From a virus, in the IMG/VR virus record IMGVR_UViG_3300037070_001066, positions 1-64,000 of that record: a stretch of 64,000 nt of DNA; one strand, given 5' to 3'. Every line of letters starts with the position of its first letter. Positions within the stretch are counted from its first letter, which is position 1. The translations under genes and the position numbers were made by a program. This document shows positions 8,273 to 48,396 of the stretch, in pieces. The notes below the pieces were generated by a model, which saw nothing but the letters and a program-made list of their open reading frames with translations, was not told where the DNA came from and searched no databases.

Positions 8273-8509
8273 TTATGCTTTTTTAGCACGAACCTTTTTA
8301 ACAGGAACTTCTTTCTCTACTACTGGTTCAGATAAATCTTCATACTGACCAATAAACTTAACTACTGCGTCAAATGAATTAATAACTACTATTGCCTCTT
8401 GCAATGTAAATGCTCCAGACTTGTTTGCTGCGTTCAACGCGTTGTTTAATGTAATCAAATTCTCTCTCATAATCTTATCTATTATCTTTTGCTTTAATAA
8501 GTCTTTCAT
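8273..8509 (-). CDS. Hypothetical protein, 78 aa, basic tail
   Basis: Two helices (residues 1-60) are followed by a short acidic patch and a strongly basic C-terminus (VKKVRAKKA). The start at 8509 overlaps the GroES-like gene by 35 nt; a second Met at 8470 would remove the overlap. The basic tail may contact nucleic acid or membrane. The family is unknown. Confidence 0.6.
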   Translation of the reverse strand: MKDLLKQKIIDKIMRENLITLNNALNAANKSGAFTLQEAIVVINSFDAVVKFIGQYEDLSEPVVEKEVPVKKVRAKKA

Positions 8510-8828
8510 CTATTAGTGCATAAGGCACTCCATCTATTTCATATAAATCAACCTTAACCTGCATAACTGCTTCGTATGCATTATTGTCTTCCGACTTTGT
8601 GGCAACCATCATTCTTTCAATATCGATGATTACTTTTTGACCTGGAGATACTTTAATATTCTTCCATTGTATTTCTCCTGCAACTACATATTGAACATCA
8701 TCTAATACATTATCTGAAAATATCAATACACCATCTTCTTCTGCTTTATTCAAAGTAATGAATACTTTACCAAATAAAGGTTCTAAAGGAAATACATTTA
8801 TAACATCTAATACATCATCTTGATTCAT
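8475..8828 (-). CDS. groES: GroES-like co-chaperonin
   Basis: 117 residues from the ATG at 8826-8828. That start overlaps the preceding stop as ATGA, so it is preferred over the Met five codons upstream. The order of strands fits the GroES fold: an N-terminal PLFGKVFITLNK strand, a Gly-containing hairpin (EEDGVLIF) in the mobile-loop position, a VVAGEIQW strand, the KVSPGQKVIIDI turn, and a C-terminal KVDLYEIDGV strand. Co-occurrence with the GroEL-like gene in one transcript strengthens the call. GroES-type lids are very variable in phages (T4 gp31 is an example), so identity rests on pattern rather than close similarity. A structure prediction showing a seven-stranded beta-barrel with a flexible loop would settle it. 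Confidence 0.55.
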   Translation of the reverse strand: MNQDDVLDVINVFPLEPLFGKVFITLNKAEEDGVLIFSDNVLDDVQYVVAGEIQWKNIKVSPGQKVIIDIERMMVATKSEDNNAYEAVMQVKVDLYEIDGVPYALIDERLIKAKDNR

Positions 8829-9112
8829 TCTCTCTTCTCCCATTTCTCTATCAAATTACTTTTTTGTTTCTTAATCTTTTCATATACCATAAAATTAGTA
8901 TATAACTTTCCAATGTGTGTATATATAAAATTAGTTTTAAGTTCTTTAAATTCCTCTTCAGTCATATTATCTTTTACATCTAAATTAGAAATAGTTTCTC
9001 TTGTGAACTTAAACTGAGCTTGTACTATCTTCTTGACAATATCATCCTGTAAGTTAAACTCTAATCCTATACTATGTATTAATTTCTTAAGTCTAGGATC
9101 CTCCGCTTTCAT
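8825..9112 (-). CDS. Hypothetical protein, 95 aa
   Basis: An all-helical, charged small protein with repeated KK/EE pairs and a C-terminal IEKWEKRE helix. Its stop overlaps the GroES-like start as ATGA, and its start lies inside the end of the next upstream gene (20-nt overlap), so all are in one tightly packed operon. I recognise no motif. Confidence 0.65.
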   Translation of the reverse strand: MKAEDPRLKKLIHSIGLEFNLQDDIVKKIVQAQFKFTRETISNLDVKDNMTEEEFKELKTNFIYTHIGKLYTNFMVYEKIKKQKSNLIEKWEKRE

Positions 9113-19053: not shown

Positions 19054-19367
19054 GGGGCTGTTTTGGTTTTGACTGGTAGTGAGTAGGTAAATAGTTCAGT
19101 GAGAGATAACTCTAAACATAGGTGAATTGAATAAATGGAAAACAAATTGACGCCAATATGGCAAAAGTTCGTAGCTTAATCAACTCTGAGGAGTTTGAAT
19201 TAGCAGCATAATTATTCTAAAGATTTATCATTTAGATTAAAATGATTGGTGGATTGTTAGCTAAAACTAGTTAACCCCTTTGAACGTAACAATTTAAAAA
19301 CGTGAAACTGTATACAACTATTTAGCGAATGCTAATCAGGACGCGGGTTCGAATCCCGCCAGCTCCA
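19054..19367 (+). ncRNA. ssrA: Phage-encoded tmRNA (ssrA)
   Basis: The 5' end GGGGCTGTTTTGGTTTTGAC matches the universal tmRNA opening. The 3' end has a T-arm (GCGGG-TTCGAAT-CCCGC) and CAGCTCC, which pairs with GGGGCTG over 7 bp with one G-U. The encoded 3' end is ACAC, so CCA is presumably added by the host. The likely tag reading frame starts at GCA 19161 (possibly one codon earlier) and ends at TAA 19209-19211, giving a tag of about 16 residues, AKVRSLINSEEFELAA. tmRNA with SmpB frees stalled ribosomes and tags the product for proteolysis. Total length 314 nt, slightly shorter than bacterial tmRNAs. No smpB is seen in this window. Confidence 0.92.
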
Positions 19368-19383
19368 CACTCCTAGAGTGGTT

Positions 19384-26561: not shown

Positions 26562-27275
26562 ATGGAAGAAAACTTAATGCTTATACCTATAATAAAACCA
26601 GGAATGAGGGTCATGATTAGGCCTGGAACAAGGTATTATAATAGAGGGCCAGGCAATCCTGGAGGAACAAAAGGTAAAATTGTTCAAGGTGATTCTAGTT
26701 GGATAAGAGTCAGATGGGATAGTGGTTACACAAATACTTATGAAGAATATGATCTTGATTTTGAAAGTATACCAGAAATGTTTGAAACTAACATCAATAG
26801 AATATACTTCAAAGAAAATGGTATTAAAATATCTAGCATGAAACAGTTGTTAGATATATTATATCCTGAAAACAAACCAACTGCAGCAACATATTATTTT
26901 GTAACAGCCACTGGAGAGAAGTTCTTGCATTGTACAGAAGGTAAAATGAGATCATTTGATGATATCTGGATACTTGCTGATACATACATGCCTGGAATTG
27001 AGGTTAAAGAAGTCTTTAGAGAATTGCTTTTACATGGAGTGACTGAAAAGCATGTAAAGGATGAAATATTTAAAAAATCATTATCTCATTGTTCTACTAT
27101 GAGAAGAATAAGGTTTACTACAGATGCTGCTAGACCTCATATGATGATGGCTTCTGCTGATTGTAATAAATACGACTCTATATATAGTTGGAGAAACTTA
27201 TTTAACATGCTTAACATAAAAGATTCTGCAGATTTACTAAAATTTTACAAACAATCAATTAAAGTAGAAGTATAA
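26562..27275 (+). CDS. MIB/HERC2-like SH3 domain fused to phage paralogous domain
   Basis: 237 residues. Residues about 10-65 (KPGMRVMIRPGTRYYNRG, GTKGKIV, SSWIRVRWDSGYTNTYEEYD) match the pattern of MIB/HERC2 SH3-like domains, known mainly from eukaryotic ubiquitin ligases. Residues about 105-190 carry the phage-specific paralogous domain (FLHCTEGKMRSFDDIWILAD, then a Cys and MRRIRF), also seen in five other products here. CTAAATA begins 14 nt before the ATG. It overlaps its paralogue downstream by one base. Function unknown; the SH3 part may bind a peptide. Confidence 0.6.
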   Translation: MEENLMLIPIIKPGMRVMIRPGTRYYNRGPGNPGGTKGKIVQGDSSWIRVRWDSGYTNTYEEYDLDFESIPEMFETNINRIYFKENGIKISSMKQLLDILYPENKPTAATYYFVTATGEKFLHCTEGKMRSFDDIWILADTYMPGIEVKEVFRELLLHGVTEKHVKDEIFKKSLSHCSTMRRIRFTTDAARPHMMMASADCNKYDSIYSWRNLFNMLNIKDSADLLKFYKQSIKVEV

Positions 27276-27742
27276 TGGAACTGTATGTACAATTTGCGCA
27301 AGAAGAACTTCCTAGAACTGTTGCCTCATTTATTAAAAAATATTACACAAAACGAGTAGATCCATATATTGCAATAGGACACAATACATTTTTTGATCCT
27401 GAATGTACTAAATTGCATTGCAGTAAATCTTATAGAAGTTTTGATGATTTATATGATTTGGTAAAAACGTATTATCCTGATACAACAAAAAAAGAAATGA
27501 TTCATCATCTTATTACTGTAAATATACCAACACAAAATGGTAGATCTTTTCCTAATTTAGGAACATGTAATACTATGAATAGAATTAGATTCATACCTTA
27601 CCAAAAAATGAATGATCGTCCTGAGCATTTAGAAATGAAAATGTTACATTCTGAAAACACCTGGATGGAATTACTTGGTTTAATAGGAATAAAAAGTGAA
27701 AAAGAATTACAAGAATACATTAAAAACAATAGAGAACCTTAA
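27275..27742 (+). CDS. Member of phage paralogous domain family
   Basis: 155 residues. Core: LHCSKSYRSFDDLYDLVKTY, YPDTTKKEMIHHLI, then TCNTMNRIRF. The pattern is a beta hairpin ending in Cys, [FY]RS, an acidic pair, a helix, the YFPDxT turn and a second helix, and it recurs in the products at 26562, 28080, 32846, 35390 and 37573. No known family. Coupled to the gene upstream. Confidence 0.6.
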   Translation: MELYVQFAQEELPRTVASFIKKYYTKRVDPYIAIGHNTFFDPECTKLHCSKSYRSFDDLYDLVKTYYPDTTKKEMIHHLITVNIPTQNGRSFPNLGTCNTMNRIRFIPYQKMNDRPEHLEMKMLHSENTWMELLGLIGIKSEKELQEYIKNNREP

Positions 27743-29551: not shown

Positions 29552-31243
29552 ATGAGTGATTTAAATCCGATGTTGTTTGTCGACAGTTACAAACTTCATC
29601 ACAAGCCTATGTATCCAAATGGTATGGTAAAACTATATTCTAACGGAACACCTAGAGCTAGTAGAATGCCAGGAGTTAAAGAAGTAGTTGTGTTTACAAT
29701 GCAACATACTATTAGAGAGTATCTTATTGAGAAATTTAATAAAAACTTCTTTATGACCGAAGAGAGAGAACGATGTTTAAACCAATCATGGGCTCTTGAG
29801 GCTTTAAAAGGAAAGATGGTTGCAGACTACAAACGTCACTGTCCTGTCGATACTAAACACATCGAAGATTTATGGGACTTAGGATATCTTCCTATTGAGA
29901 TTAAAGCTCTTGAAGAAGGCACATTATGTCCAATTGGAGTTCCAGTATTCACGATTACAAACACTCATCCTAGTTTTGCTTGGTTAGTGAATTATTTGGA
30001 AACTTTAATTTCCTGTTGTATTTGGCAAGGTATGACCTCAGCTACAATCACTCATGAGTATAAGAAAATATTAACCAAACACGCTTTAGAATCAGATGAA
30101 GAAAACGTCGAATTCGTTAACTGGCAAGCTCATGACTTTAGCATGCGTGGCATGTCTAGTGTCGAATCTGCTATTACTTCTGGAATGGGTCATTTGCTAT
30201 CAGTCACAGGCAGCGACAATATACCAGCAATCTACCAACTTGAGAAGAGTTATTCAGGTTCTGGGCTTATTGGAGCTTCTATTCCTGCTACTGAGCATTC
30301 TGTCATGTGCATGGGTAATAAAGAGAATGAGGTAGATACATTTAGACGTCTTCTAACTTTATATCCTGAAGGAAACTTAGCAATAGTTTCAGACACTTGG
30401 GACTTATGGGATGTAGCAGAATTCTATTTACCTGTATTGAGAGATTTAATTATGTCTCGTAATGGTAAGTTAGTAATACGTCCTGATTCAGGTAATCCTG
30501 CAGATATTCTATGTGGATTAGATTATGAAGAGATTGATCATCGTGATGAAGTTTACTTAATAGACGACCCTAAAGTTGTATATGTAAGAAACGAAGATGC
30601 TTTCTTTAGAGTTAAAAAGATAGAAAAATCTGGAACTTTTGATTACGTTTATTCAGAAGTTAGAGAAGCAGAGGTTAAAGGGCTCGTACAGCTACTTTGG
30701 GACGCATTTGCGGGCACAACTAATACTCAAGGGTATAAAGTATTAGATTCACATATTGGAGCGATCTACGGCGATTCTATTACGTTGGCACGTGCTGAAG
30801 AAATCTGTACTAGACTTAGAGAAAATGGCTTTGCATCTACAAATGTTGTACTTGGTATTGGAAGTTATACTTACCAATATAATACAAGAGATACTTTTGG
30901 ATTTGCTATCAAAGCTACATATGGTGAGGTAATGAGTTCAGATGGTACTTGCACTTGTGAGAATACTTCGTCATGTGAATGTGGTAAGATTGATAGAAGA
31001 GAAATCTACAAAGATCCTATTACTGACGATGGTACTAAGAAATCTAAGAGAGGCTTGTTAAGAGTAGACATGGAAGACGGTAAAATCGTTTGCTATGAAA
31101 GCCAAACTCCTTTCGAAGAGACTCAAGGTTTACTACAAACTGTATTCAAAGATGGCAAGTTATATAACCAAACCACTCTAGAGAGAATTCGAGAAAAACT
31201 TAAATCACAATTTCATGTTGAGCCAGCGGGATCAGGACGATAA
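29552..31243 (+). CDS. Nicotinamide phosphoribosyltransferase-like enzyme (Namat-type, NAD+ restoration)
   Basis: 563 residues, longer than NAMPT (about 490). NAMPT signatures: VDSYKLHHKPMYPNGM (10-25), SIPATEHSVM (about 245), LVIRPDSGNPAD (about 305) and SYTYQYNTRDTFGFAIKAT (about 440-458). A Cys-rich insertion (CTCENTSSCECG, about 469-480) may bind metal. It is followed by a PRPP-synthetase-like gene. In phages that pairing is known as the NARP1 pathway: the Prs-like protein makes ADP-ribose pyrophosphate and the NAMPT-like protein joins it to nicotinamide, rebuilding NAD+ destroyed by host defence. A standard NAMPT salvage role is the alternative. Confidence 0.85.
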   Translation: MSDLNPMLFVDSYKLHHKPMYPNGMVKLYSNGTPRASRMPGVKEVVVFTMQHTIREYLIEKFNKNFFMTEERERCLNQSWALEALKGKMVADYKRHCPVDTKHIEDLWDLGYLPIEIKALEEGTLCPIGVPVFTITNTHPSFAWLVNYLETLISCCIWQGMTSATITHEYKKILTKHALESDEENVEFVNWQAHDFSMRGMSSVESAITSGMGHLLSVTGSDNIPAIYQLEKSYSGSGLIGASIPATEHSVMCMGNKENEVDTFRRLLTLYPEGNLAIVSDTWDLWDVAEFYLPVLRDLIMSRNGKLVIRPDSGNPADILCGLDYEEIDHRDEVYLIDDPKVVYVRNEDAFFRVKKIEKSGTFDYVYSEVREAEVKGLVQLLWDAFAGTTNTQGYKVLDSHIGAIYGDSITLARAEEICTRLRENGFASTNVVLGIGSYTYQYNTRDTFGFAIKATYGEVMSSDGTCTCENTSSCECGKIDRREIYKDPITDDGTKKSKRGLLRVDMEDGKIVCYESQTPFEETQGLLQTVFKDGKLYNQTTLERIREKLKSQFHVEPAGSGR

Positions 31244-31334
31244 TCCTAGAAGCCCAGGCTTTACAGGTTGCCCTAAATGTGAAAAACCAAAAGGGCTTTG
31301 TACGTGTAAACCAAAAACAGGAAAAAAATGCTAA
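31215..31334 (+). CDS. Tiny Cys-rich protein between the NAD+ genes
   Basis: 39 residues, ATG at 31215, TAA at 31332-31334. It overlaps the end of the NAMPT-like gene by 29 nt and the start of the Prs-like gene by 7 nt. Five Cys are arranged as CPKCEKPKGLCTC and a terminal KKC, typical of a small zinc-binding unit. It fills the otherwise empty 84-nt gap exactly. It could be a third component, a coupling peptide or a chance frame. Confidence 0.45.
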   Translation: MLSQRDQDDNPRSPGFTGCPKCEKPKGLCTCKPKTGKKC

Positions 31335-32209
31335 GTCTAAATTTAACTAACCAAGAAACGTCTGACATCCATTTTAAAATTTATAATTTTCCAGATGGAC
31401 AAAGACAAGTAAAGATAGAGTCGCCTGTAAAGGCGCTCTACTCTTTCAAAGAAACTCCTGTTACTATAATGTCTAGAATGAATAACTTTCAAGATCTTGA
31501 ATTGATTATTTGTTCAGTTAAATCATTGAGAGGATTAGGATTTAAAGAGTTAAATCTTTATTGTCCACTTTTCCTTGGTTCAAGAAGTGATAGAGTTTTC
31601 GAACCTGGTACAAATAACTATCTTAAAGATGTTATATGTCCAATTATAAACTCATTAGAGTTTGAATCTGTTATTGTAGTAGATCCTCATTCAGATGTCT
31701 TAGAAGCATGTTTAAATAACTTTAAAAAGATTAGCAATCTCGCTTTAGTTGAATTTGCTTTAAAAGACTTTAAAGATGAAGACTTTACATTAGTATCGCC
31801 TGATGCAGGAGCATTAAAAAAAGTCTTTAATATTGCTGAAAAGATTAAATACGAAGGCAGTATTTTAACTTGTACTAAAACAAGAGATGAACACGGGAAA
31901 CTCTCAAACTTAAATATCCCTCTAAATTATGAACATGTATGCAAACCCATAATTATCATTGATGATATATGTGATGGTGGAGCTACATTTGCTAGAATCG
32001 GTAGGGCTATATATGGTTATAGAGTTGCAACTGGAGCTGATTCAAAAACATTTGGAAAAGTTTCCTTAATTATCACGCATGGAATGTTTAATAATGGATT
32101 CGCTGAATTAGCTAGATATTTTAATTCTATGTATACAACGAATAGTTATAAAAACATAAATAAAGCTTTCTTGACTGCGCATAAAATTAAACAGTTAGAT
32201 GTATTTTAA
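31328..32209 (+). CDS. Ribose-phosphate pyrophosphokinase-like enzyme (Adps-type)
   Basis: 293 residues, close to the PRPP synthetase length of about 315. Signatures: LGSRSDRVFEPGTNN (about 83-97), the pyrophosphokinase strand VVDPHSD (about 117-123; DLHS in housekeeping Prs), and the phosphoribosyl-binding loop IIIIDDICDGGATFARIG (about 209-226). The family normally makes PRPP from ribose-5-phosphate. Next to a NAMPT-like gene in a phage it more likely pyrophosphorylates ADP-ribose. The stop overlaps the next start by one base. Confidence 0.85.
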   Translation: MLSLNLTNQETSDIHFKIYNFPDGQRQVKIESPVKALYSFKETPVTIMSRMNNFQDLELIICSVKSLRGLGFKELNLYCPLFLGSRSDRVFEPGTNNYLKDVICPIINSLEFESVIVVDPHSDVLEACLNNFKKISNLALVEFALKDFKDEDFTLVSPDAGALKKVFNIAEKIKYEGSILTCTKTRDEHGKLSNLNIPLNYEHVCKPIIIIDDICDGGATFARIGRAIYGYRVATGADSKTFGKVSLIITHGMFNNGFAELARYFNSMYTTNSYKNINKAFLTAHKIKQLDVF

Positions 32210-32845: not shown

Positions 32846-33586
32846 ATGGCAAACTTTATAATAAAGATTCTTGAAAAAAACAGAGAACATGTTGAATCAC
32901 TTAAAGACTCAGTAGTATCACGCAATGGCTTTTTCTTAAACGAATGGGCTTATGATAATTTGGGTATTATAGTAGCGCTATACACTGTCTTCGTTTTAAT
33001 ATTTATTGCGTTATTTGCAATATTTATGTTACCTATATCAATAGTTATGATATCTATAAATGCTTGTTACAAAGGATTTAAGGCAATAAGAGGATCATAT
33101 TACTTTTATAGGAAACACATACGAGAATCAATAAAGGAATATGAAGCTTCTCTTAACAAGAAGAATACATATTTTCTATGCGATAAAGGGGATCTAAATG
33201 ATTGGACATGTATTGTCCTAGAATCACAATTAGAAGAATTCCTTATCAAGTTCTTTAACCACTATAATTCTACATATGACACTTATGAAATGAACACTAA
33301 TGAGTGTGTGTGTACTAGATATAGAAGGAGAAGCATAGGAGATCTTTATTTAATTTGCAAGAGTTATTTTCCAGACACTAATCTCGATGAAGTTATCATA
33401 TGCTTAATTAAGCTAGTTAATGACAACGTGATAGCTGTTTCTAAATGTAGCGATATAAAGAGATACGTCTTTGTTAAGAAAGATACTTATACAGGAAATT
33501 ATCAAAACAAGGAAGTAGAATTTATAAGCGGCGTTAACTTTGAACAATTAACTGCGTATTATGAACGAAACGGAAGAATGTCCTAA
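32846..33586 (+). CDS. Membrane protein carrying the phage paralogous domain
   Basis: 246 residues. Hydrophobic spans near 33-70 (LGIIVALYTVFVLIFIALFA; FMLPISIVMISI), a basic linker, then the paralogous domain at about 150-210 (CVCTRYRRRSIGDLYLICKS, YFPDTNLDEV, KCSDIKRYVF). This copy ties the family to the membrane. It overlaps the next gene by 26 nt. Confidence 0.6.
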   Translation: MANFIIKILEKNREHVESLKDSVVSRNGFFLNEWAYDNLGIIVALYTVFVLIFIALFAIFMLPISIVMISINACYKGFKAIRGSYYFYRKHIRESIKEYEASLNKKNTYFLCDKGDLNDWTCIVLESQLEEFLIKFFNHYNSTYDTYEMNTNECVCTRYRRRSIGDLYLICKSYFPDTNLDEVIICLIKLVNDNVIAVSKCSDIKRYVFVKKDTYTGNYQNKEVEFISGVNFEQLTAYYERNGRMS

Positions 33587-33749: not shown

Positions 33750-34148
33750 ATGGAAAGAAACAATTTAATAGCAGTTTACGGTACATTACGAAAGGGATGC
33801 GGAAATCACAGTCATTTTTTAAGAAATGCTGATTTTAAAGGAGAGTTTTCTACTGAACCAGTTTACAGTTTATATAGCTTAGGAGGTTTTCCTGGGTTAA
33901 AGGCTAATGGCAATACGTCTGTTAAGATGGAAGTATATGCAGTTAATGATGATGAAGCAGATACTGTAGATTCATTGGAGGGATATTCTAAAAATAGAAC
34001 TCCTCACTTTTATGATAAAGAGGAAATCGAGACTCCTTGGGGAACAGCTAGTGTATACACTTATGTTAGAGATGTGAATGAAGATTCATTTATTCCAACT
34101 GGTGACTGGCTTAACAGGGTAGTTATGGAGCCTGTTTATCGTTTTTAA
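33750..34148 (+). CDS. Gamma-glutamylcyclotransferase-like protein (AIG2/GGACT family)
   Basis: 132 residues. The signature AVYGTLRKGCGNHSHFL (8-24) is the substrate-binding loop, and the candidate catalytic Glu lies in SLEGYSKN (about 73-80). This family cleaves gamma-glutamyl or epsilon-gamma-glutamyl amides to 5-oxoproline plus amine. A second, more diverged copy is at 40661, next to amide-ligase genes, so both may process isopeptide or gamma-glutamyl products of that cluster. Confidence 0.82.
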   Translation: MERNNLIAVYGTLRKGCGNHSHFLRNADFKGEFSTEPVYSLYSLGGFPGLKANGNTSVKMEVYAVNDDEADTVDSLEGYSKNRTPHFYDKEEIETPWGTASVYTYVRDVNEDSFIPTGDWLNRVVMEPVYRF

Positions 34149-35389: not shown

Positions 35390-35815
35390 ATGGAAAAAAC
35401 AAACCTAATCTACGTTAGACTTGGTGATATTCCTGCCACAAAAACACGTAAGGGATTCATTAAGAAACTTTTAACTTCAAAAGGTGTATTGACTTATTTA
35501 GATGAGGATTGTTCAAAATTGCAATGTGCTAAAAAGGGAGCTTTTAGGAGTGTTAGCGAGTTGCATTTAATTGTACGTTCTCGTTTTAAGTTTACATCAT
35601 TGGAAGCTTTATTGAAGATTTTGAAAGAAATCATTGATGAAGAAAAATGTGTTGCATTAATTTGGTGTACACAAATTCACAAAGTAGTTGTTAAGTATCA
35701 AGAAAACACACCCAAAGAGTATATTACTCAATATAGTAAAAGTAATCACTATGAATCAAAAGGGGTAGATGGTTGGTCACTTAAAGATTACGAAGAAATT
35801 ATTAACAAATTGTAG
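35390..35815 (+). CDS. Member of phage paralogous domain family
   Basis: 141 residues. Core: KLQCAKKGAFRSVSELHLIV, then RSRFKFTSLEALLKIL, then WCTQIHKVVV, aligning with the other family copies, although the PD turn is changed to KF. Function unknown. Confidence 0.6.
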   Translation: MEKTNLIYVRLGDIPATKTRKGFIKKLLTSKGVLTYLDEDCSKLQCAKKGAFRSVSELHLIVRSRFKFTSLEALLKILKEIIDEEKCVALIWCTQIHKVVVKYQENTPKEYITQYSKSNHYESKGVDGWSLKDYEEIINKL

Positions 35816-37572: not shown

Positions 37573-38043
37573 ATGAAAAAGAGCGATGTAAAGGATTTTG
37601 ACACATTAGAAGAATATTACGATAAAGTTAGGAAGATTAAGTTTGATGATAACGTTCAGATTGAATCTTTGGACGATATATACAATAACTTGTTTACACT
37701 ACACAGAGTTGGGTTTTCTCAACGACCAACATTCTTCTCCAGAGGCAAGCTACAATGTTCTTCTGGAAGATTTCGTAGTATAGATGACTTCGTAAAACTT
37801 GTTAAAAAGTACTTCCCTGACAAAACACTAAAAGAAATATTTCAATACTTGAAAGATAAAGAAGATACATTTAAAAAAGATGATCTTATTCAAAGTTTCA
37901 GATATTGTGGAACTATTAGGAAATATAATTTCAGCGGCTTAATACCTTCAAGATATTCTCAGCATATGGAAATTGAGAAGTATAGACTAAGAGATTTAAA
38001 TCCTAATTTAGGAGTTGCCACAGTAGCTGATCTTTTAACTTAA
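37573..38043 (+). CDS. Member of phage paralogous domain family
   Basis: 156 residues. The best-preserved copy: KLQCSSGRFRSIDDFVKLVK, KYFPDKTLKEIFQYLK, then a Cys and TIRKYNF. The N-terminal 45 residues are acidic and copy-specific. Function unknown. Confidence 0.6.
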   Translation: MKKSDVKDFDTLEEYYDKVRKIKFDDNVQIESLDDIYNNLFTLHRVGFSQRPTFFSRGKLQCSSGRFRSIDDFVKLVKKYFPDKTLKEIFQYLKDKEDTFKKDDLIQSFRYCGTIRKYNFSGLIPSRYSQHMEIEKYRLRDLNPNLGVATVADLLT

Positions 38044-40660: not shown

Positions 40661-41083
40661 ATGGAAGAAAAAATCATAGTTGGAGTATATGATGGCCTTA
40701 GAAAAAATGGAGAATCTCATGATTTATTTATGTCAAAAGCTAACTACTTAGGCACATTTTATACTGAGCCAGAATTCTCACTATTTTCATTCTCTAAAAA
40801 ATATCCAGCACTAAGTTTAGGAGGTTCCACTTCTGTTTTGTTAGAAGTCTATGAGGTTACTGAAGAAATTTTAAAGACAATAGATTACTATGAAGGGTGT
40901 AATGACATAGATCCTTATATGAATATCTATAATAAAGCAGAGATTGAAACTCCGTTTGGTGAATGTATTATCTATATCTACAACAGGATGGTAGTAAACA
41001 AGCCGCTTATTGAATCAGGTGATTGGTTTAGATTTAAAAAAGAAGTAAGACAACGAATAGAAGAAACAAGAAAAATAGTATAA
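40661..41083 (+). CDS. Diverged gamma-glutamylcyclotransferase-like protein
   Basis: 140 residues, a paralogue of the 33750 product. The loop reads GVYDGLRKNGESHDLFM (8-24), so Thr of YGTLR is changed to Gly with Asp before it; the Glu region is YYEGCNDID (about 78-86). First gene of the amide-bond cluster, starting 2 nt after the primase stop. It probably hydrolyses or cyclises gamma-glutamyl amides, or has become a binding subunit. Confidence 0.75.
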   Translation: MEEKIIVGVYDGLRKNGESHDLFMSKANYLGTFYTEPEFSLFSFSKKYPALSLGGSTSVLLEVYEVTEEILKTIDYYEGCNDIDPYMNIYNKAEIETPFGECIIYIYNRMVVNKPLIESGDWFRFKKEVRQRIEETRKIV

Positions 41084-41086
41084 ATC

Positions 41087-41965
41087 ATGGTAATAAACAT
41101 TAATTCAAAAAAGAAAGTAGGAGATGTTCTATTATCAGTTGCATTAAGAACTGGTAAATATGTTCCAATGATTAGAAGCAGACATCCTTCTCATGCAGGT
41201 TTAAGAAGAGCTTTACCTAAACTTCCGTTTAGAAGTGTCATCAGACTAGGCTCTCTGACTGTATTAGAGGACGATAGCAGCAAGAAAGGGAACAGGGTGG
41301 AACTGAACAGTGCATTGGCTATAAAGAATAGCTCTAGCAAGCTTAAAATGAAGCAATGTTTTACTCAAGGAGGCGTTAAAACAGCTGAATGGATATATTC
41401 TACAAGTGAGAATGATATCATAAATTGGCTGAAGGAATATCCAATTGTGGCTAAAAGCCATATGGGTTCTCGCGGAAGAGGAAATACATTGTTGAAAACT
41501 GAAGCTGAAGTAAGAGCTTTTATTAGAAGCAAGGATCTTTCACATTACATTTTTGAAAAGTATTATAACTACAACAAGGAGTATAGATTGCATGTCAGTG
41601 CTGACGGTTGCTTTTATGCTTGTAGAAAAATGCTTAAGAATGAATTTAAAGATCATCCTAATGCGTGGCAAAGACATGATGACAATTGTTCTTGGATACT
41701 TGAAGAGAATGAAATGTTTGACAAACCTACAAATTGGGCTAATATAATTGATCATTGCGTTAAAGCATTGATTAGTTGTGGTCTTGATTTTGGAGCATGT
41801 GATTTGAGAGTTCAAAACAATATTGATAAAGAAGGAGTTAGAAGACTTCAACCTGACTTCATTGTTGTAGAGATTAATTCTGCGCCATCATTTGGTAAAG
41901 TTACTCTTGAAAAATACAAAGAAGTATTACCTCAACTTTTAGTTAAAAAACATGAAAATCGTTAA
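41087..41965 (+). CDS. RimK-like ATP-grasp amide ligase
   Basis: 292 residues. ATP-grasp features in order: a substrate/pre-ATP region (to about 85), LKMKQCFTQGGVKT, the nucleotide strand YPIVAKSHMGSRGRGN (about 122-137) with its Gly-rich loop, EYRLHVSADG (about 164-173), LDFGACDLRVQ (about 233-243) and the metal-binding VVEINSAPSFGK (about 264-275). Such enzymes join a carboxylate to an amine via acyl-phosphate. Overlaps the next gene by 14 nt. Confidence 0.85.
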   Translation: MVININSKKKVGDVLLSVALRTGKYVPMIRSRHPSHAGLRRALPKLPFRSVIRLGSLTVLEDDSSKKGNRVELNSALAIKNSSSKLKMKQCFTQGGVKTAEWIYSTSENDIINWLKEYPIVAKSHMGSRGRGNTLLKTEAEVRAFIRSKDLSHYIFEKYYNYNKEYRLHVSADGCFYACRKMLKNEFKDHPNAWQRHDDNCSWILEENEMFDKPTNWANIIDHCVKALISCGLDFGACDLRVQNNIDKEGVRRLQPDFIVVEINSAPSFGKVTLEKYKEVLPQLLVKKHENR

Positions 41966-42173
41966 AAAAGGAGATGAACCAACTTTTGTTCCTATAACCT
42001 TATATATTACTATAGAGAGCAAAGAGGAGCAAGAGACGTTATTATCATTATTTAAAACAATAACTTCTCATGAGTTAACAACAATTGCTTTAAAGAATAC
42101 AAAAGAACATCTTAACCAAAAGGTTATTAGCACATTTATAGGAGGTTTTTATAATTCATTATTAGATAAATAA
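41952..42173 (+). CDS. Hypothetical protein, 73 aa, in the amide-bond cluster
   Basis: Strand-helix protein: PITLYITIESKEEQETLLSL (about 15-34), then a helix and FIGGFYNSLLDK. Short enough to be a carrier, substrate peptide or small subunit for the adjacent ligases. It ends in a free Lys (LLDK), but this may be chance. No family recognised. Confidence 0.6.
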   Translation: MKIVKKGDEPTFVPITLYITIESKEEQETLLSLFKTITSHELTTIALKNTKEHLNQKVISTFIGGFYNSLLDK

Positions 42174-42180
42174 AAAAAAC

Positions 42181-42921
42181 ATGAAAAAAATAATTGGAGT
42201 TTATGCTGATGTAGCAAATGGTAGAGTTGGTCAAACAGCTCCGTATATGCAATTCTTAGGTCAATTTGGTAATGTACGTTTAATACTACCTACTGACAAT
42301 TTAAGAGAGGTTGCAAAAAGTATTGATATGTTAGTATTGCCTGGAGGTTCTGATATAAATTCTGCCAAATATAATCAAGCGCCAGATATTATGACAGGAC
42401 GTCCTAATATGCATTTTGATTATTTAGATGCTAATCTGTTGCCTTTGGTAATTGAGATGAAGAAACCTATTTTAGGTATTTGTCGAGGTATGCAAGCATT
42501 AAATGTTCACTTTGGTGGTACATTAAATCAGCATGTTATTGGTCATCACCAAGGAGACAATCGTGCTGCTACAAAGCAAGAAATTCAATTTGAAGACGGA
42601 AAGAAACCGCATATGATTAACTCTATGCACCATCAATCTGTTAACATTTTAGGAGATGGTTTTGAAATTGTAGCTTATAGCCAATGTTATCAAGGATGTT
42701 ATTCTGAAAAGAAACATGTTAGAAACTGGTATTTTGTTGATGACAAGAAGAAGAAAGAATTCTTTGAATGTATTGTCATCATTGAGATGATTAAGCACAA
42801 AAATCTTCCTATTGTTGGAGTTCAATGGCATCCAGAGGAGTTCAATTGTAAAGTTACAGTTGATTGTATTAACACTTTATTAAAAGAATATGAAGAAAAA
42901 GTTAGCAGTCCTAGTAAATGA
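42181..42921 (+). CDS. Class I glutamine amidotransferase-like hydrolase (peptidase C26)
   Basis: 246 residues. Nucleophile elbow GICRGMQ (Cys101), the LPGGSDINSAKYNQ loop (53-66) and the catalytic His-Glu in VQWHPEEF (His217, Glu219) are intact. The family includes gamma-glutamyl-GABA hydrolase, which releases amines from gamma-glutamyl conjugates. Followed by a paralogue overlapping by 32 nt. Confidence 0.85.
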   Translation: MKKIIGVYADVANGRVGQTAPYMQFLGQFGNVRLILPTDNLREVAKSIDMLVLPGGSDINSAKYNQAPDIMTGRPNMHFDYLDANLLPLVIEMKKPILGICRGMQALNVHFGGTLNQHVIGHHQGDNRAATKQEIQFEDGKKPHMINSMHHQSVNILGDGFEIVAYSQCYQGCYSEKKHVRNWYFVDDKKKKEFFECIVIIEMIKHKNLPIVGVQWHPEEFNCKVTVDCINTLLKEYEEKVSSPSK

Positions 42922-43570
42922 TTCAGCAGATTATGAATCTTATGTTGCGTTCCTTAAACTAAAATATGATATTGAGCTTGTAAAGCTTTCTTCTATTGCA
43001 AAGAAAGAAACGATTCCTGAGATTGATTTAATGTTGTTTACTGGAGGAGAAGATGTTGATCCAGCTTATTACAATGAGAAACCTGGAAAAAGAACATTCT
43101 ATAATCCTTCAAGAGACAATGATGAATCTAAAATGTTTAGAATGCTAAATCAAAAGATTCCAAAACTTGGAATTTGTAGAGGAAGTCAATTCTTAACTGT
43201 AATGAGTGGTGGTAAATTAATACAACATGTGGAAAATCATGGTATTGGTGGAACTCATTCAATTACATTTGATTATATTCATAATCATAAAATGCAGATT
43301 ACGTCAACGCATCACCAAATGATGTATCCTTTTGATTTATCAAAGAAAGAATATATACTTTGTGCTTATGCAACCAACTATTTAAGTCCTATATACTTAA
43401 ATGGTAATGACAGAAACATTGAAGTGCCTGAAGAATTCTTGGAGCCAGAGATTGTATTCTATCCTAGAAGTAATTCTTTAGCAATTCAAGGTCATCCTGA
43501 ATCTGGTATTATGTCAGATGATGGAAAAATGTTTATATTGAACTATATAGACAATGTATTAAAGCTTTAA
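42890..43570 (+). CDS. Second class I glutamine amidotransferase-like hydrolase
   Basis: 226 residues. GICRGSQ (Cys96), FTGGEDVDPAYYNE (50-63) and IQGHPESG (His202, Glu204) are intact. Related to the preceding product and probably a tandem duplicate with changed specificity. It may trim or hydrolyse gamma-glutamyl products made by the neighbouring ligases. Confidence 0.83.
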   Translation: MKKKLAVLVNDSADYESYVAFLKLKYDIELVKLSSIAKKETIPEIDLMLFTGGEDVDPAYYNEKPGKRTFYNPSRDNDESKMFRMLNQKIPKLGICRGSQFLTVMSGGKLIQHVENHGIGGTHSITFDYIHNHKMQITSTHHQMMYPFDLSKKEYILCAYATNYLSPIYLNGNDRNIEVPEEFLEPEIVFYPRSNSLAIQGHPESGIMSDDGKMFILNYIDNVLKL

Positions 43571-43595
43571 CATTAAACCTTTAAATTATAAAAAC

Positions 43596-44414
43596 ATGGA
43601 AAAAATTGTAGAAAACAAGCATGGAGTTACCTTAGGTAGTGATCCTGAGATTTTTATATGTAATGCTGAAGAGATCGTCTCAGCAGAAGGTTTAACAGGT
43701 GGAACGAAACACGATCCCGTTCCAATTAGCGAGGAAGGACATATGATTCAAGAAGATGGTATTGCTCTCGAGTATAACATACCAGCTTGCTCCACAGTAG
43801 AGGAGTTTATTGCTCATCATGAATTTGTTCAAGACTATTTTAAAGTTTTAATCGCCGCTCATGGTTATGAGTTTAGCAAAGAAAGAAGTGCGGATATTAA
43901 TCCAATCTTCTTGCAAACTGAGCAAGCTCAAACATTTGGGTGTGAACCTGATTATAACGTTTATACTAGAAGCGAGAACGAAGCTCCTGAATCAGGACAG
44001 AATTTAAGATGTGTTGGAGGTCATATTCACATTGGATATCCAGATCCAGACCAAGACGTTACTGAGAAAATTGTAATGATGTTTGACATGTTTGCAACCT
44101 TGCCATCTCTATTTAAAGACAATGATACGCGTCGTAGAGAATTGTATGGTAAAGCCGGTAGTTTTAGGTTTAAGATTTTTGGATTAGAATGTAGAGCATT
44201 GTCTAACTTTTGGATTCATACAAGAGAAGACATGACTTGGGTATGGAATCAAACAATGAGAGCTGTTAATTGTGTTCTTGACGGAGAGTCTGATGCTTTA
44301 ATTGAAAAGTATTCTTCTGATGTTAGAAATGCAATTAATACTGCTGATTTAAAATTAGCAGCTGAATTGATGATCATGATTGATCATGAAGTACAAAAAG
44401 AAGTGGTAGAATAG
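43596..44414 (+). CDS. COOH-NH2 ligase (glutamine-synthetase-like fold, type 2)
   Basis: 272 residues. GVTLGSDPEIFICN (9-22) with its metal/ATP acidic pair, an IALEYNIPAC strand (about 57-66), VGGHIHIGYPDP (about 144-155) and the RELYGKAGSFRFK with LECRALSNFW block (about 187-212) match the phage COOH-NH2 ligase type 2 family. It uses ATP to form amide bonds between a carboxylate and an amine; in phages the substrate is unknown. Confidence 0.8.
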   Translation: MEKIVENKHGVTLGSDPEIFICNAEEIVSAEGLTGGTKHDPVPISEEGHMIQEDGIALEYNIPACSTVEEFIAHHEFVQDYFKVLIAAHGYEFSKERSADINPIFLQTEQAQTFGCEPDYNVYTRSENEAPESGQNLRCVGGHIHIGYPDPDQDVTEKIVMMFDMFATLPSLFKDNDTRRRELYGKAGSFRFKIFGLECRALSNFWIHTREDMTWVWNQTMRAVNCVLDGESDALIEKYSSDVRNAINTADLKLAAELMIMIDHEVQKEVVE

Positions 44415-44435
44415 ACAAACAAACAAGACTAAATA

Positions 44436-46403
44436 ATGGAAATAAAAATTTTATTACTACTATTATTAGCACATTATATACTCTTCTTTCTATTTAGAGG
44501 GAAGGGTGATGTGCTCGCTTGCGGTATATTTGGATGGTCTGGAAGCAGAACTACAAGATTTAACAAGCAAAAATTTGATATTCTAGGACTTTTTAACAAT
44601 TCAAGAGGTGGAGATTCATGTGGAGTGTCTACAGATGGAGAAATCTATTATGGTACACTTTTAAACAAAAGTTATGATGACTTTGTTGTTAACAAGAATT
44701 ATCTTTCTCCTGTAAGAATTCCTGTTGTTATTGGACATTCTCGTAAAGCAAGTGTTGGAGCTGTAAGTGAAACAAATGCTCATCCATTTGGATTTGGAGA
44801 TTTAGGAGAAGGTCATGCTTTTATTGGGTGTCATAATGGTACTTTAAGCAATTATGAGGAACTTGGTAAAAAATATGAAGTCGAAACTTCTGTCTACAGT
44901 GAAAGAAATATGTTCCTAAGGACTAAAGTAGATTCTGAAATACTATTGGAGATACTATATAAAACTAAAGATACGGAAGTATTACAAGAATATATAGGAG
45001 GAGCTGCTTTATTATTCCAAAATTTAGAAGAACCTAACACATTATTTGCATTTCATGGAGCTTCTAAAAAAGAAGTTGGAGATAGAGGTGAAACTTTATA
45101 CGAAGAAAGACCTTTATATTACTATCAAGAAGCAAAAGATTCAGTTTACATTTCTTCAATAGAAGAAGCTTTAATATTCATAGGTGGAGAAAAAGACAAA
45201 ACTGTTTTTGAATTTGATCACAATCTTTTGTACAAAATCAAAGATGGAAATGTTGATAAAGCTGTAACTTATGAAGTGGACAGGAGAGGAGCTGGCCAAA
45301 AGAAACCCTATGGGGGTGCGGGTTTTTGCATGGGTGGGACGGCTACTGGGACTAATACTGCCAGAAACCACGGTCCTGCCAAAAGGGGAAAGCGAAAAGA
45401 AAGAAGTAAATCTAGACGGTTCAAACAAATAGCAAATGTCGCAAATATATACGATGAAACTGTTATTGAGGGAGACTTTAAATCTGCAATATATTATAAC
45501 AAATTAAGATATTGGAGAAATGGTCACTTAATAGATGGTGTTTTCACATATATTAAAGGATTTGGTTTGTATAAGATCGGAGATCAAGCTTCTGATTCAA
45601 ATAATAAATTGTATCAATTGATGGGAGAACACTTTAGTCTTGAAGATGGTATGTTTTTAGATACTGTTTATTTAGAACAAAGACTCGCTCTTGATGAAAC
45701 TATATTTGTACCATTTGAATTTAGTACAAAGGAACCACCTGTATTCTTCTTTCATAATGGAATCATGCTAGAAACAATGCATGACTTTGCTGCATTAAAT
45801 GGAGAGTATGCAAGTAAATTTTCCTTTGAACATTTATCGCAAATGTCTAAATACCCTATCTGTAGAATGCGCAAGAATCGGCCAGACAATAACAGACAAG
45901 AAATACTTTATAATGGTCAGCCTTATACCAATAATTTTATACCTTTGCAATGTAATAATTGCTACAATATTGAAAATGGTAATTTAATCAATATAGATAG
46001 GTTAGAAGAAATTGTTGTGAAAGAAGCTGAAATTTGTTGTTCTGTTAAGATTCCTTCTACTAATGAGGTGATACAGTTGCCCATGGAATTTGATGCTCCA
46101 ATTATGGGGCCGAATAGTTTGATCAATGCATATCATCCTGCTAGACCAACTGTTGAATTTCTGGATGAAGATCCTCCTATTGAAGATTATTTCCAAAAAA
46201 AGGGAGATGATGAAAAGGTTTTGAGCATCATTAATAAGCACATTATGCCAGTTTACACACAATTGCAAACTTGTAATGAGGATCTTAAAAATGAAGAAGA
46301 TGAAACTATTCAAGAGCTTATTGACTTAAACAAGGATTACTTATTGAGTGTTGACTGTATTGTTGAATCAAAATCCAAAGAAAATGAAGGAGAAGCTAGT
46401 TAA
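44436..46403 (+). CDS. Class II glutamine amidotransferase with N-terminal hydrophobic leader
   Basis: 655 residues. The Ntn nucleophile is predicted at Cys29 in LACGIFGWSGSR; HSRKASVGAVSETNAHPF (about 99-116) and CHNGTLSNYEEL (about 131-142) complete the glutaminase fold. Residues 5-20 are strongly hydrophobic (ILLLLLLAHYILFFLF), so the enzyme has a leader that must be cleaved to expose Cys29, or translation starts internally at GTG 44511. The C-terminal 370 residues are a beta-rich domain of unknown function. It probably supplies ammonia or glutamyl groups. Its end overlaps the amidoligase gene by 20 nt. Confidence 0.8.
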   Translation: MEIKILLLLLLAHYILFFLFRGKGDVLACGIFGWSGSRTTRFNKQKFDILGLFNNSRGGDSCGVSTDGEIYYGTLLNKSYDDFVVNKNYLSPVRIPVVIGHSRKASVGAVSETNAHPFGFGDLGEGHAFIGCHNGTLSNYEELGKKYEVETSVYSERNMFLRTKVDSEILLEILYKTKDTEVLQEYIGGAALLFQNLEEPNTLFAFHGASKKEVGDRGETLYEERPLYYYQEAKDSVYISSIEEALIFIGGEKDKTVFEFDHNLLYKIKDGNVDKAVTYEVDRRGAGQKKPYGGAGFCMGGTATGTNTARNHGPAKRGKRKERSKSRRFKQIANVANIYDETVIEGDFKSAIYYNKLRYWRNGHLIDGVFTYIKGFGLYKIGDQASDSNNKLYQLMGEHFSLEDGMFLDTVYLEQRLALDETIFVPFEFSTKEPPVFFFHNGIMLETMHDFAALNGEYASKFSFEHLSQMSKYPICRMRKNRPDNNRQEILYNGQPYTNNFIPLQCNNCYNIENGNLINIDRLEEIVVKEAEICCSVKIPSTNEVIQLPMEFDAPIMGPNSLINAYHPARPTVEFLDEDPPIEDYFQKKGDDEKVLSIINKHIMPVYTQLQTCNEDLKNEEDETIQELIDLNKDYLLSVDCIVESKSKENEGEAS

Positions 46404-48396
46404 AACAATTAAAGGAGAAGATCGTAATGAGAAAGACTGTAGACTTATTGATGGACAATACTATTATATAGGGGACATCCATAGAGAAAACTCTGGAGAT
46501 ATATATCTAATTAACAATAGATATATAAGAGCGTCTACTGAAAGAATCGTATTCGATCATTTTGAAGGTGAGTATAAGTTGAAAAATAGCAGTTTAACTC
46601 ATGGTATAATTGATATTGAAGACGGAACTCCTGTATTTGGTTATTTCTCTAAAAATGATCTTTATAACGTAAAGGTTATAGTTAAGGATTTGAGCGAAAG
46701 AGTTGCAATTTCAGCAAATGTACTTGGATATGAATTCAGAGAAAGAAGATCTGATGGAGTGTTCTATCACATTTCCCTTTTAGATGCTAATAAGTTTAAC
46801 CTGCTTAGAGGTATTTCAAGAGAAATAAAAGAAAGCTTTCCTTATGATTCTAAAGGGTCTATTGCTAAAATTACAAAAACATTTGAGTCTAATTACAAAC
46901 CTGTTATTTGTAGAAATGCAGAAATTGTAGGTAAAACTTTAAAGGATTATACATTTGGATTAGAGTTTGAAACATGTGCTGGAATAATACCTAATAATAA
47001 ATTAGTATACTTGCCATTAATACCATTGAGAGATGGTTCAATTAGCGGTATAGAATATGCTACAATTCCATTAAAAGGTCCAGTAGGAGTTCAAGCATTA
47101 ATTGATTCTGTAGATGAATTGAAAAGAAGAACATCCTATAGTGATGAATGCTCTTTACATATACATGTTGGTGGTATGCCAAGAACGACTGAGTATATAT
47201 TAGCATTCTACAAGACTATATCATTGTTGCAAAATGACATATTTTCAATGTTCCCGCTTTACAAGAAATATAATTTTGGCGTTAAACGTAAAAACTATAG
47301 CGCGCCATTTCCATTTGAAGAGATTAACTTTAGAATGGATCCGATCATAAATTATAATGATAAAAAGCAGGTTAATAAGAATTTTGATCATTTGTTCACA
47401 TATTTATCTGGAGGTGTAACTTTCGCAGAATATGGTAATGATTTAAGTCAAGTACTTGTACATCCTCAAGATCCTCAAGGAGCTGCTAAATGGAATATTA
47501 AGCATAGATATTCTTTTGTAAACTTAATTCCTTTAATATTTGGAAATCATCAAACTATTGAATTTAGAATTCATACACCAACGTATGATATAAATAAAAT
47601 ATTGGATTTCTTGATGTTGAATATTTATATAATTGATTATGTTAACATAAACTATAAATTGATTCTTGCAGGCAAAGATACTTTATCTATCATGAGACCA
47701 AGCTTGCAGTTTATGTTAAATGATTATGTAAATAACATTGAAGGAAGTAGTAGAAAAACTATATTTAATGAGTTAAATCGTTATATTAGTGAAAGAAAAC
47801 ATGCTTCTGAAGACATTGCAAGAACAAAAGGTGTTGTTTACCAAGAAGAAGACTTAAGACTTCCTAAAGGTTTAGGATTTAATACCTACAAATACCATAG
47901 ATCAAATGGATCTTATTTTTCAGCTTCATATCTTGAAGATATTCTATACGAAAGTAGTCTGAGTAGCTTTGACAGCCCTTTTGCTGAGGCTTCTATTAAA
48001 TTCGAAGATGTAAATCCTTCTGCTAAATTAAAACTTCGCAGTGATGTTGGAGTTTCTCCTAAAAGGAGGCCAAGAGATTTAGCTAGAGAGAAAGAAGTTT
48101 TAGAATCTTCAAGAAAAGCTCTTGAACAGATACAAGCATCTGAAAAAGAACGTTTAGATAAGGGGTTAGGTGGAGGTTTATATGAGCAAATGAGACAAGC
48201 TGCTGAAATTAGATATTCTCTTAAAGACAATGGAACTAGGCCTGTAATTTCAGATCCTGGAACTTTATCTGGACTTGGTGTATCTACTTTTGGAACTAGC
48301 GGCTCTGTTCAAGTTAAAGAAAGTTCTTATGATTGGACTCTTAAGGCTTCTAAGTCTAATGATGATTGGGAAGAATCTATACATAAACCAGAATAG
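46384..48396 (+). CDS. Amidoligase (glutamine-synthetase-like fold)
   Basis: 670 residues from the ATG at 46384, preferred over an upstream GTG at 46348. The amidoligase core lies at about 190-420: FGLEFETCAG (192-201) with metal-binding Glu, SISGIEYATIPLKG, CSLHIHVGG (about 256-264), and a late TIEFRIHTPTYD (about 390-401) with the Arg of the family. The N-terminal 180 residues and the Ser-rich, Arg/Lys-rich C-terminal 150 are extra. It should catalyse ATP-dependent amide bond formation, probably on a peptide or cell-wall carboxylate. The long termini suggest a protein partner. Confidence 0.8.
   Translation: MKEKLVKTIKGEDRNEKDCRLIDGQYYYIGDIHRENSGDIYLINNRYIRASTERIVFDHFEGEYKLKNSSLTHGIIDIEDGTPVFGYFSKNDLYNVKVIVKDLSERVAISANVLGYEFRERRSDGVFYHISLLDANKFNLLRGISREIKESFPYDSKGSIAKITKTFESNYKPVICRNAEIVGKTLKDYTFGLEFETCAGIIPNNKLVYLPLIPLRDGSISGIEYATIPLKGPVGVQALIDSVDELKRRTSYSDECSLHIHVGGMPRTTEYILAFYKTISLLQNDIFSMFPLYKKYNFGVKRKNYSAPFPFEEINFRMDPIINYNDKKQVNKNFDHLFTYLSGGVTFAEYGNDLSQVLVHPQDPQGAAKWNIKHRYSFVNLIPLIFGNHQTIEFRIHTPTYDINKILDFLMLNIYIIDYVNINYKLILAGKDTLSIMRPSLQFMLNDYVNNIEGSSRKTIFNELNRYISERKHASEDIARTKGVVYQEEDLRLPKGLGFNTYKYHRSNGSYFSASYLEDILYESSLSSFDSPFAEASIKFEDVNPSAKLKLRSDVGVSPKRRPRDLAREKEVLESSRKALEQIQASEKERLDKGLGGGLYEQMRQAAEIRYSLKDNGTRPVISDPGTLSGLGVSTFGTSGSVQVKESSYDWTLKASKSNDDWEESIHKPE

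Follow-up and report, generated by a model that had tools for sequence, protein, structure and literature searches.

What does a phage make with a compact set of genes whose products both form and break amide bonds? The question is raised by a run of genes in the window, by which we mean the whole 64,000-nucleotide stretch of DNA analysed here (positions 1 to 64,000 of the IMG/VR record IMGVR_UViG_3300037070_001066). Our answer, which we hold at a probability of about 0.5, is that these genes belong to a phage-only cassette that uses gamma-glutamyl chemistry to build an amide-linked product. The cassette is a variant of an already described phage amide-ligase cassette, not a new kind of system, and hundreds of phages of distant bacteria (those of Pseudomonas and E. 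coli, and crAss-like phages) carry it. Comparison among these relatives narrows the search for its substrate to a molecule with a terminal gamma-glutamyl group, and a leader on the glutaminase provides a physical clue to membrane location.

A conserved gene run inside a replication operon

The record is that of a 104,771-bp virus which, judged from its terminase and gene order, is a crAss-like phage; the large subunit of its terminase shares 38-42% identity with those of crAss-like phages. The cassette lies within the replication operon of this virus as eight plus-strand genes in one tightly packed run (Table 1), with intergenic gaps of -32 to +25 bp, and the run is unbroken from the primase, 2 bp upstream, through the cassette to the UDG, RusA and exonuclease genes downstream. 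The coordinates, together with significant Pfam and PHROG matches, bear out the eight-gene rightward run of named families reported in a preliminary description of this DNA, and codon usage backs every ORF in it, including that of 73 aa. For the last gene, the start common to relatives is the ATG at 46384, not the GTG at 46348, which confirms the 670-aa length first given for the amidoligase.

Table 1. Features of the amide-ligase cassette, with a related gene outside the run (window coordinates).
Feature	Coordinates	Strand	Evidence
GGCT/GGACT-like gamma-glutamyl(amine) cyclotransferase, 140 aa	40661..41083	+	PF06094 E 6e-14; PHROG 2520
RimK-like ATP-grasp carboxylate-amine ligase, 292 aa	41087..41965	+	PHROG 2599 E 9e-34
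73-aa lineage-specific ORFan	41952..42173	+	codon score like that of its neighbours
C26a, class I amidotransferase-fold gamma-glutamyl hydrolase (SpuA/PuuD-like)	42181..42921	+	PF07722 7e-32
C26b, second C26 hydrolase	42890..43570	+	PF07722 8e-20
COOH-NH2 ligase type 2 (phiEco32-like), 272 aa	43596..44414	+	PF14395 E 3e-6, above cut-off; PHROG 3815 E 7e-72
Class II (Ntn) glutaminase / gamma-glutamyl hydrolase fold, 655 aa, C-terminal region conserved	44436..46403	+	PF13522 (GATase_6) 6e-10
Glutaminase N-terminal leader, 28 residues: hydrophobic helix, basic patch, ending VLA before the Cys	44436..44519	+	
Amidoligase_2, GS/GCS-like ligase, 670 aa	46384..48396	+	PF12224 E 1e-4, just above cut-off; PHROG 2443 3e-23
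Amidoligase N-terminal beta-rich domain	46384..46947	+	reciprocal presence; model
Second GGCT paralogue, outside the run	33750..34148	+	PF06094 5e-20; PHROG 2520

In alignments, the invariant residues of the cassette families fit the expected catalytic sites of their enzyme classes. Specifically, K85, E165, R167, K181, D239 and E262 are invariant in the ATP-grasp protein; the COOH-NH2 ligase has 21 invariant columns, including E18, D54, E59, H143, R180, E198 and R200; and E206, E208, D229, H271, H273, E405 and R407 (numbered from the GTG) are invariant in the amidoligase. The glutaminase conserves C29, R57, G100-H101-R103, H133-N134-G135 and D166, and has the features of class II enzymes, namely the Ntn fold, the catalytic Cys, a glutamyl-binding Arg and Asp, and the HNG oxyanion motif. 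C101, H217 and E219 are invariant in C26a, as is the same C-H-E set in C26b, a paralogue 28% identical to it, while the cassette GGCT keeps its catalytic-type Glu (YYEGC) and has a substrate loop that reads YDGL as against YGTL. Its paralogue outside the run has both the YGTL loop and the Glu intact, and may supply the same activity. The preliminary description had proposed a pathway that both makes and breaks amide bonds and had set loss of catalytic residues in homologues against it; checked by alignment, these residues are conserved, and the pathway is supported. Because the catalytic residues are conserved in the alignments and the gene set across dozens of phages, the cassette is not a chance assembly.

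The nearest solved relatives of the cassette enzymes are mostly handlers of glutamyl or gamma-glutamyl groups, which supports gamma-glutamyl chemistry as the likely theme. The ATP-grasp profile matches structures of RimK, alpha-L-glutamate ligase and cyanophycin synthetase, as well as D-Ala-D-Ala ligases; solved relatives of the GGCT are YtfP and AIG2-like proteins; and the C26 profile matches 7d4r and 7d50, which we take to be SpuA, and PuuD 6vtv. The glutaminase model matches the glutaminase domains of GFAT, PurF, AsnB and EgtC; the matches listed in this fold search were all class II glutaminase proteins, none of them informative for the C-terminal region. For the COOH-NH2 ligase, the amidoligase and a family of ~200-aa proteins considered below, sequence searches against the PDB returned nothing usable, and the amidoligase model has weak fold matches (best E 0.009) to a 1-naphthylamine GS, YbdK and glutamine synthetases, with a further weak match to the depupylase Dop. 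The two COOH-NH2-type ligases are probably members of one superfamily (glutamine synthetase/GCS-like), and the initial count of three unrelated ligase/glutaminase folds is then probably too high.

Distribution and published relatives

Relatives of the COOH-NH2 ligase number at least 448 in viral contigs and 314 in phage records. In cellular genomes (84,980 species, one genome each) there are 10, all in MAG contigs, most of which carry further cassette genes alongside it, and none was found in plasmids; on this distribution, the gene looks phage-restricted. We analysed 118 loci, 78 of which have full flanks and form the basis of the gene counts; because the scan started from the COOH-NH2 ligase, these counts hold for loci that have this gene. 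The glutaminase and the amidoligase are each present in all 78, the ATP-grasp in 74, C26 in 60 and GGCT in 50; the core ligases plus glutaminase are complete in 74, the ATP-grasp not having been found in four large-phage loci, and a primase/helicase gene lies near the cassette in 65. Several loci vary the core enzymes. Privateer-like phages (L008:15238-17097, L052:15694-16953) encode an ATP-grasp with a long C-terminal extension, in proteins of 419-619 aa, and neither GGCT nor C26 was found in these phages. An additional class II glutaminase-like gene directly follows the amidoligase in loci L087, L088, L091, L092, L096, L098, L101 and L103; its products are 215-530 aa long, and most of them begin MC[IVL].

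The preliminary description was right that these families had been noted together in phages, but it underestimated the record, as the whole cassette, not just loose associations, has been described. The RIO-1-like version has been called a seven-gene "peptidoglycan modification cassette", and the same cassette was listed for phiEco32, 7-11, PA11, tf, LUZ24, PaP3 and CW02 (PMC5498523); PhiM6 has seven ORFs for peptide-bond synthesis (PMC6256558); and for phiEco32 a superinfection idea has been repeated (PMC10580990). Iyer 2009 and Hardies 2013 are source papers, whose content we take from the papers citing them. Iyer et al. 2009 is cited in the papers on PhiM6 and OM43 phage, and the peptidoglycan role in print for RIO-1-like phages, PhiM6 and phiEco32 cites that source. 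In agreement with the preliminary description, the papers found report no product. By its assigned families, the window cassette belongs to the known one, with COOH-NH2 ligase, Amidoligase_2, ATP-grasp, glutaminase, GGCT and two C26.

Among the known versions, those of LUZ24-like phages (PaP3 ORF42-48, tf, UFV-P2) share with the window the COOH-NH2 ligase type 2, Amidoligase_2, class II glutaminase, ATP-grasp and GGCT beside the primase/helicase. They differ in that a stand-alone ~200-aa gene (PHROG 4877) separates their two GS-like ligases and in that they have neither C26 nor leader, whereas the window has two C26 genes, a long amidoligase N-terminal domain and a glutaminase leader. The RIO-1-like phages (PSA-HP1, RIO-1; PMC5498523) and PhiM6 (PMC6256558), which trace to the same 2009 source (Iyer et al.) as cited there, resemble the window in enzyme kinds and in a position amid replication genes, but they are podoviruses of Proteobacteria, and their published role is a hypothesis only. 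The gene order is shared by phi14:2 and cr108_1 (Asinivirinae, Crassvirales), with primase-(GGCT)-ATP-grasp-COOH-NH2-GAT-II-amidoligase-UDG-...-exonuclease; phi14:2 is without C26, and cr108_1 is without GGCT and without the leader. Two C26 genes occur in the window clade and in some other relatives. In PaP3, ORF42-48 belong with the polymerase and primase to the middle genes, and they peak at 10-30 min (PMC4707531). This timing fits a product required while replication is under way and is hardly informative on lysis. By analogy with PaP3, and from its operon position, the window cassette would also be middle-expressed.

Two enzymes for gamma-glutamyl removal, possibly alternatives

At least one enzyme that removes gamma-glutamyl groups, GGCT or C26, is present in 73/78 full-flank loci: GGCT only in 13, C26 only in 23 and both in 37, leaving five with neither. 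The two cleave the same bond type by different chemistry, and across cassettes they seem, on these patterns of presence, to replace each other. In a first locus set, one or the other occurred in 19/19 sequence clusters, a clear negative association (one-sided p about 0.008); in a larger cluster set, this association between them was weaker and borderline and confounded by phylogeny (Fisher p 0.085), and two clusters plus three Privateer-like loci had neither. Further, GGCT copies have lost their catalytic-type Glu in 15/59 cases alongside C26 and in 0/14 without C26, a comparison that phylogeny again confounds. Because GGCT and C26 seem mutually replacing, a gamma-glutamyl cap that needs removal is suggested, and we infer that such a cap, bearing a free alpha-amine, does occur as an intermediate. 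In several crAss-like relatives (loci L077-L083, L086, L094), a GGCT-like paralogue of 163-246 aa without the catalytic-type Glu lies upstream of an intact GGCT, possibly a repurposed GGCT fold.

The glutaminase and its leader

EgtC, one of the glutaminase matches, takes off a gamma-glutamyl group in the ergothioneine pathway, so an enzyme of class II fold can act as a gamma-glutamyl hydrolase and not as an ammonia source; the cassette enzyme may be either a glutaminase or a gamma-glutamyl hydrolase, both of which fit the homology. The hydrophobic leader that the preliminary description had seen on it is present, and leaders of this type occur in 29 phage loci, in 11 or 12 sequence clusters. 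In the window protein, the model places a helix at residues 2-19 and the catalytic Cys at 29. Ahead of this cysteine the relatives share Leu at -2 (24/27), Asn at -4 and Lys at -6 (17/27 each), mostly Ser, Asn or Gly at -1, and a basic patch of K/R, and across the pooled leaders pS (0.41) exceeds pN (0.28). A glutaminase leader with a conserved motif before the catalytic cysteine is apparently undescribed. It is absent in about half of close relatives and hence is not essential to the chemistry; many other glutaminase relatives start Met-Cys.

A mis-called start is an unlikely source of the leader, as many relatives repeat its start, length and motif; the only in-frame ATG, GTG or TTG between the start and the Cys in the window is a GTG at residue 26, which would give MLAC, and the leader by itself gives no informative codon score. 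A lipoprotein signal peptide was also rejected, in that the lipobox [LVI][ASTVI][GAS]C is absent directly after the hydrophobic core; the basic patch lies between this core and the Cys, and the conserved Leu stands at -2, where a lipobox would have it at -3. Class II enzymes need an N-terminal Cys, and the leader must therefore be removed, of which a membrane-held proenzyme would be the natural reading. Since the basic patch of this membrane-type leader would put the active site on the cytoplasmic side, we lean, for the crAss version, towards a membrane-proximal acceptor. It is possible, although we regard it as doubtful in its full form, that the glutaminase of crAss-like and related phages is a membrane-anchored zymogen on the inner face, in which cleavage between N-x-L-[S/N/G] and Cys would free the catalytic cysteine, with release of ammonia or glutamate and assembly of the product taking place at the membrane, where the acceptor would be lipid-linked or a membrane protein.

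The amidoligase N-terminal domain and the 73-aa protein

The first ~190 residues of the amidoligase form a domain that the model predicts to be beta-rich at high pLDDT. An amidoligase extension of at least 129 aa is found in 59/59 loci without a separate ~200-aa PHROG 4877/11055 gene, which is absent as a gene in the window, and the extension is short in most of the 47 loci that have that gene. From this reciprocity, the domain is probably the fused counterpart of the ~200-aa cassette gene; a standard HMM comparison of the two gave no match, and a permissive HMM-HMM run gave p 0.02-0.04 only. That such a domain stands where the ~200-aa gene is missing is apparently undescribed.

The 73-aa protein, by contrast with the conserved genes, is an accessory ORFan: coding, and outside the conserved cassette. 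It occurs in 1/78 full-flank loci, and its only homologue is an identical copy in a contig; tblastn against 50,697 phage records gave no match even at E=10, and no Pfam or PHROG match was obtained. The corresponding slot in relatives holds other ORFs or none, and the small proteins at similar places in PaP3 and in loci L013-L016 bear no relation to it. The part of substrate or carrier, which the preliminary description had offered it, is rejected on this lineage restriction. Its C-terminus is LLDK, not GGE or GGQ. An acyl carrier protein was not found in the cassette either, the run holding no other small gene.

Proposed chemistry and its rivals

In the gamma-glutamyl scheme that we prefer, three ATP-dependent ligases (two glutamine-synthetase/GCS-like and one RimK-like ATP-grasp) would couple an amine to glutamate or a glutamyl unit and would extend or transfer that unit. 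The class II enzyme would take glutamine or a gamma-glutamyl amide and yield ammonia or glutamate, while gamma-glutamyl caps would be taken off by GGCT, C26 or both. Such a protect-ligate-deprotect sequence would be like those of the butirosin and polyamine pathways. In the Puu/Spu polyamine pathways (PuuA-PuuD, SpuI-SpuA), a GS-like enzyme gamma-glutamylates an amine and a C26-family hydrolase then acts, as could be the case here, but in the window no PuuA/GlnA-type ligase was recognised, and there are extra ATP-grasp and class II enzymes. In butirosin (BtrJ/BtrG) and ergothioneine (EgtA/EgtC) synthesis, a ligase adds a gamma-glutamyl group that a GGCT (BtrG) or a class II Ntn fold (EgtC) removes; in contrast, the cassette shows no acyl carrier protein or ergothioneine gene. 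As the acceptor, a small amine or metabolite, or a carrier-bound amine, is the leading candidate, tentatively and at less than even odds; a peptidoglycan precursor comes after it as a possibility that we rate as doubtful, a protein tag is unlikely, and any other acceptor has a small chance. The GGCT-only phages PaP3 and tf are the simplest test systems.

The published peptidoglycan proposal, that ligases amidate the stem peptides of wall precursors or add unusual amide links to them, thereby altering the surface of the cell or shutting out other phages, is one we consider possible but doubtful. GGCT enzymes use the free alpha-amine of the gamma-glutamyl residue, so the N-acylated D-Glu of a stem peptide, which lacks it, is not their usual substrate; this need argues against a peptidoglycan-degrading role, and a gamma-glutamyl branch elsewhere on a wall precursor would be compatible with it. 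The D-Ala-D-Ala ligase matches of the ATP-grasp profile favour the proposal, as would a glutaminase anchored, as predicted, at the cytoplasmic face of the membrane, which would suit lipid-linked precursors, but the cassette lies among replication genes, with no recognised gene for export, lysis or a flippase in the module. Tagging of a host or phage protein, to which the RimK-like ATP-grasp and the other ligases would add glutamyl or other residues that the hydrolases remove or edit, we judge unlikely. The best structural-sequence relatives of the ATP-grasp are indeed ribosomal protein S6 glutamate ligases, the amidoligase has its weak fold match to Dop, and protein-modification roles have been proposed for other phage ATP-grasps; yet the cassette has no Pup-like or other conserved small substrate, the 73-aa protein with its LLDK end included, and two extra GS-like ligases plus a glutaminase exceed the needs of a RimK-type system.

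Two further readings have little probability. Recycling of nitrogen and amino acids, in which glutamate, ammonia and 5-oxoproline would be freed from host gamma-glutamyl compounds for phage synthesis, has been suggested in print for Phage-ZRK32 and would agree with the four hydrolase-type genes of the window cassette. Three ATP-consuming ligases with invariant catalytic residues would nonetheless be senseless for pure breakdown, and across loci the ligases are more constant than the hydrolases, which makes this reading very improbable. Modification of DNA bases by amide chemistry is the least probable of all: it would draw on the frequent primase/helicase linkage and on the ThyA-like and UDG-like genes nearby in the window, but middle-gene grouping explains that linkage equally well, and no hydroxymethylase, deazaguanine or glycosyltransferase initiator was recognised in the stretches examined.

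Other genes in the window

Elsewhere in the window, inspection by eye suggested a multi-copy family of small proteins (26562-27275, 27275-27742, 32846-33586, 35390-35815 and 37573-38043, all on the plus strand) with the common pattern C..G.FRS..DL..I...YFP; the two members searched had no PHROG match at E 0.001. A GroEL-type chaperonin is encoded at 6028-7491 on the minus strand (PF00118 E 2e-44), and the gene at 8475-8843 on the same strand may, by eye, be a GroES-like partner of this phage chaperonin. A NAMPT-like gene (29552-31243, plus strand; PHROG 448 E 7e-176) and a PRPP-synthetase-like gene (31328-32209, plus strand; PHROG 619 E 2e-52) form a pair whose predicted function could be either NMN synthesis or NARP1 NAD+ restoration, countering NAD-depleting defence. 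Finally, the window contains a tmRNA gene at 19054-19370 on the plus strand (Rfam RF00023, 82 bits), for which ARAGORN gives the tag GKQIDANMAKVRSLINSEEFELAA; to our knowledge, phage tmRNAs are uncommon.
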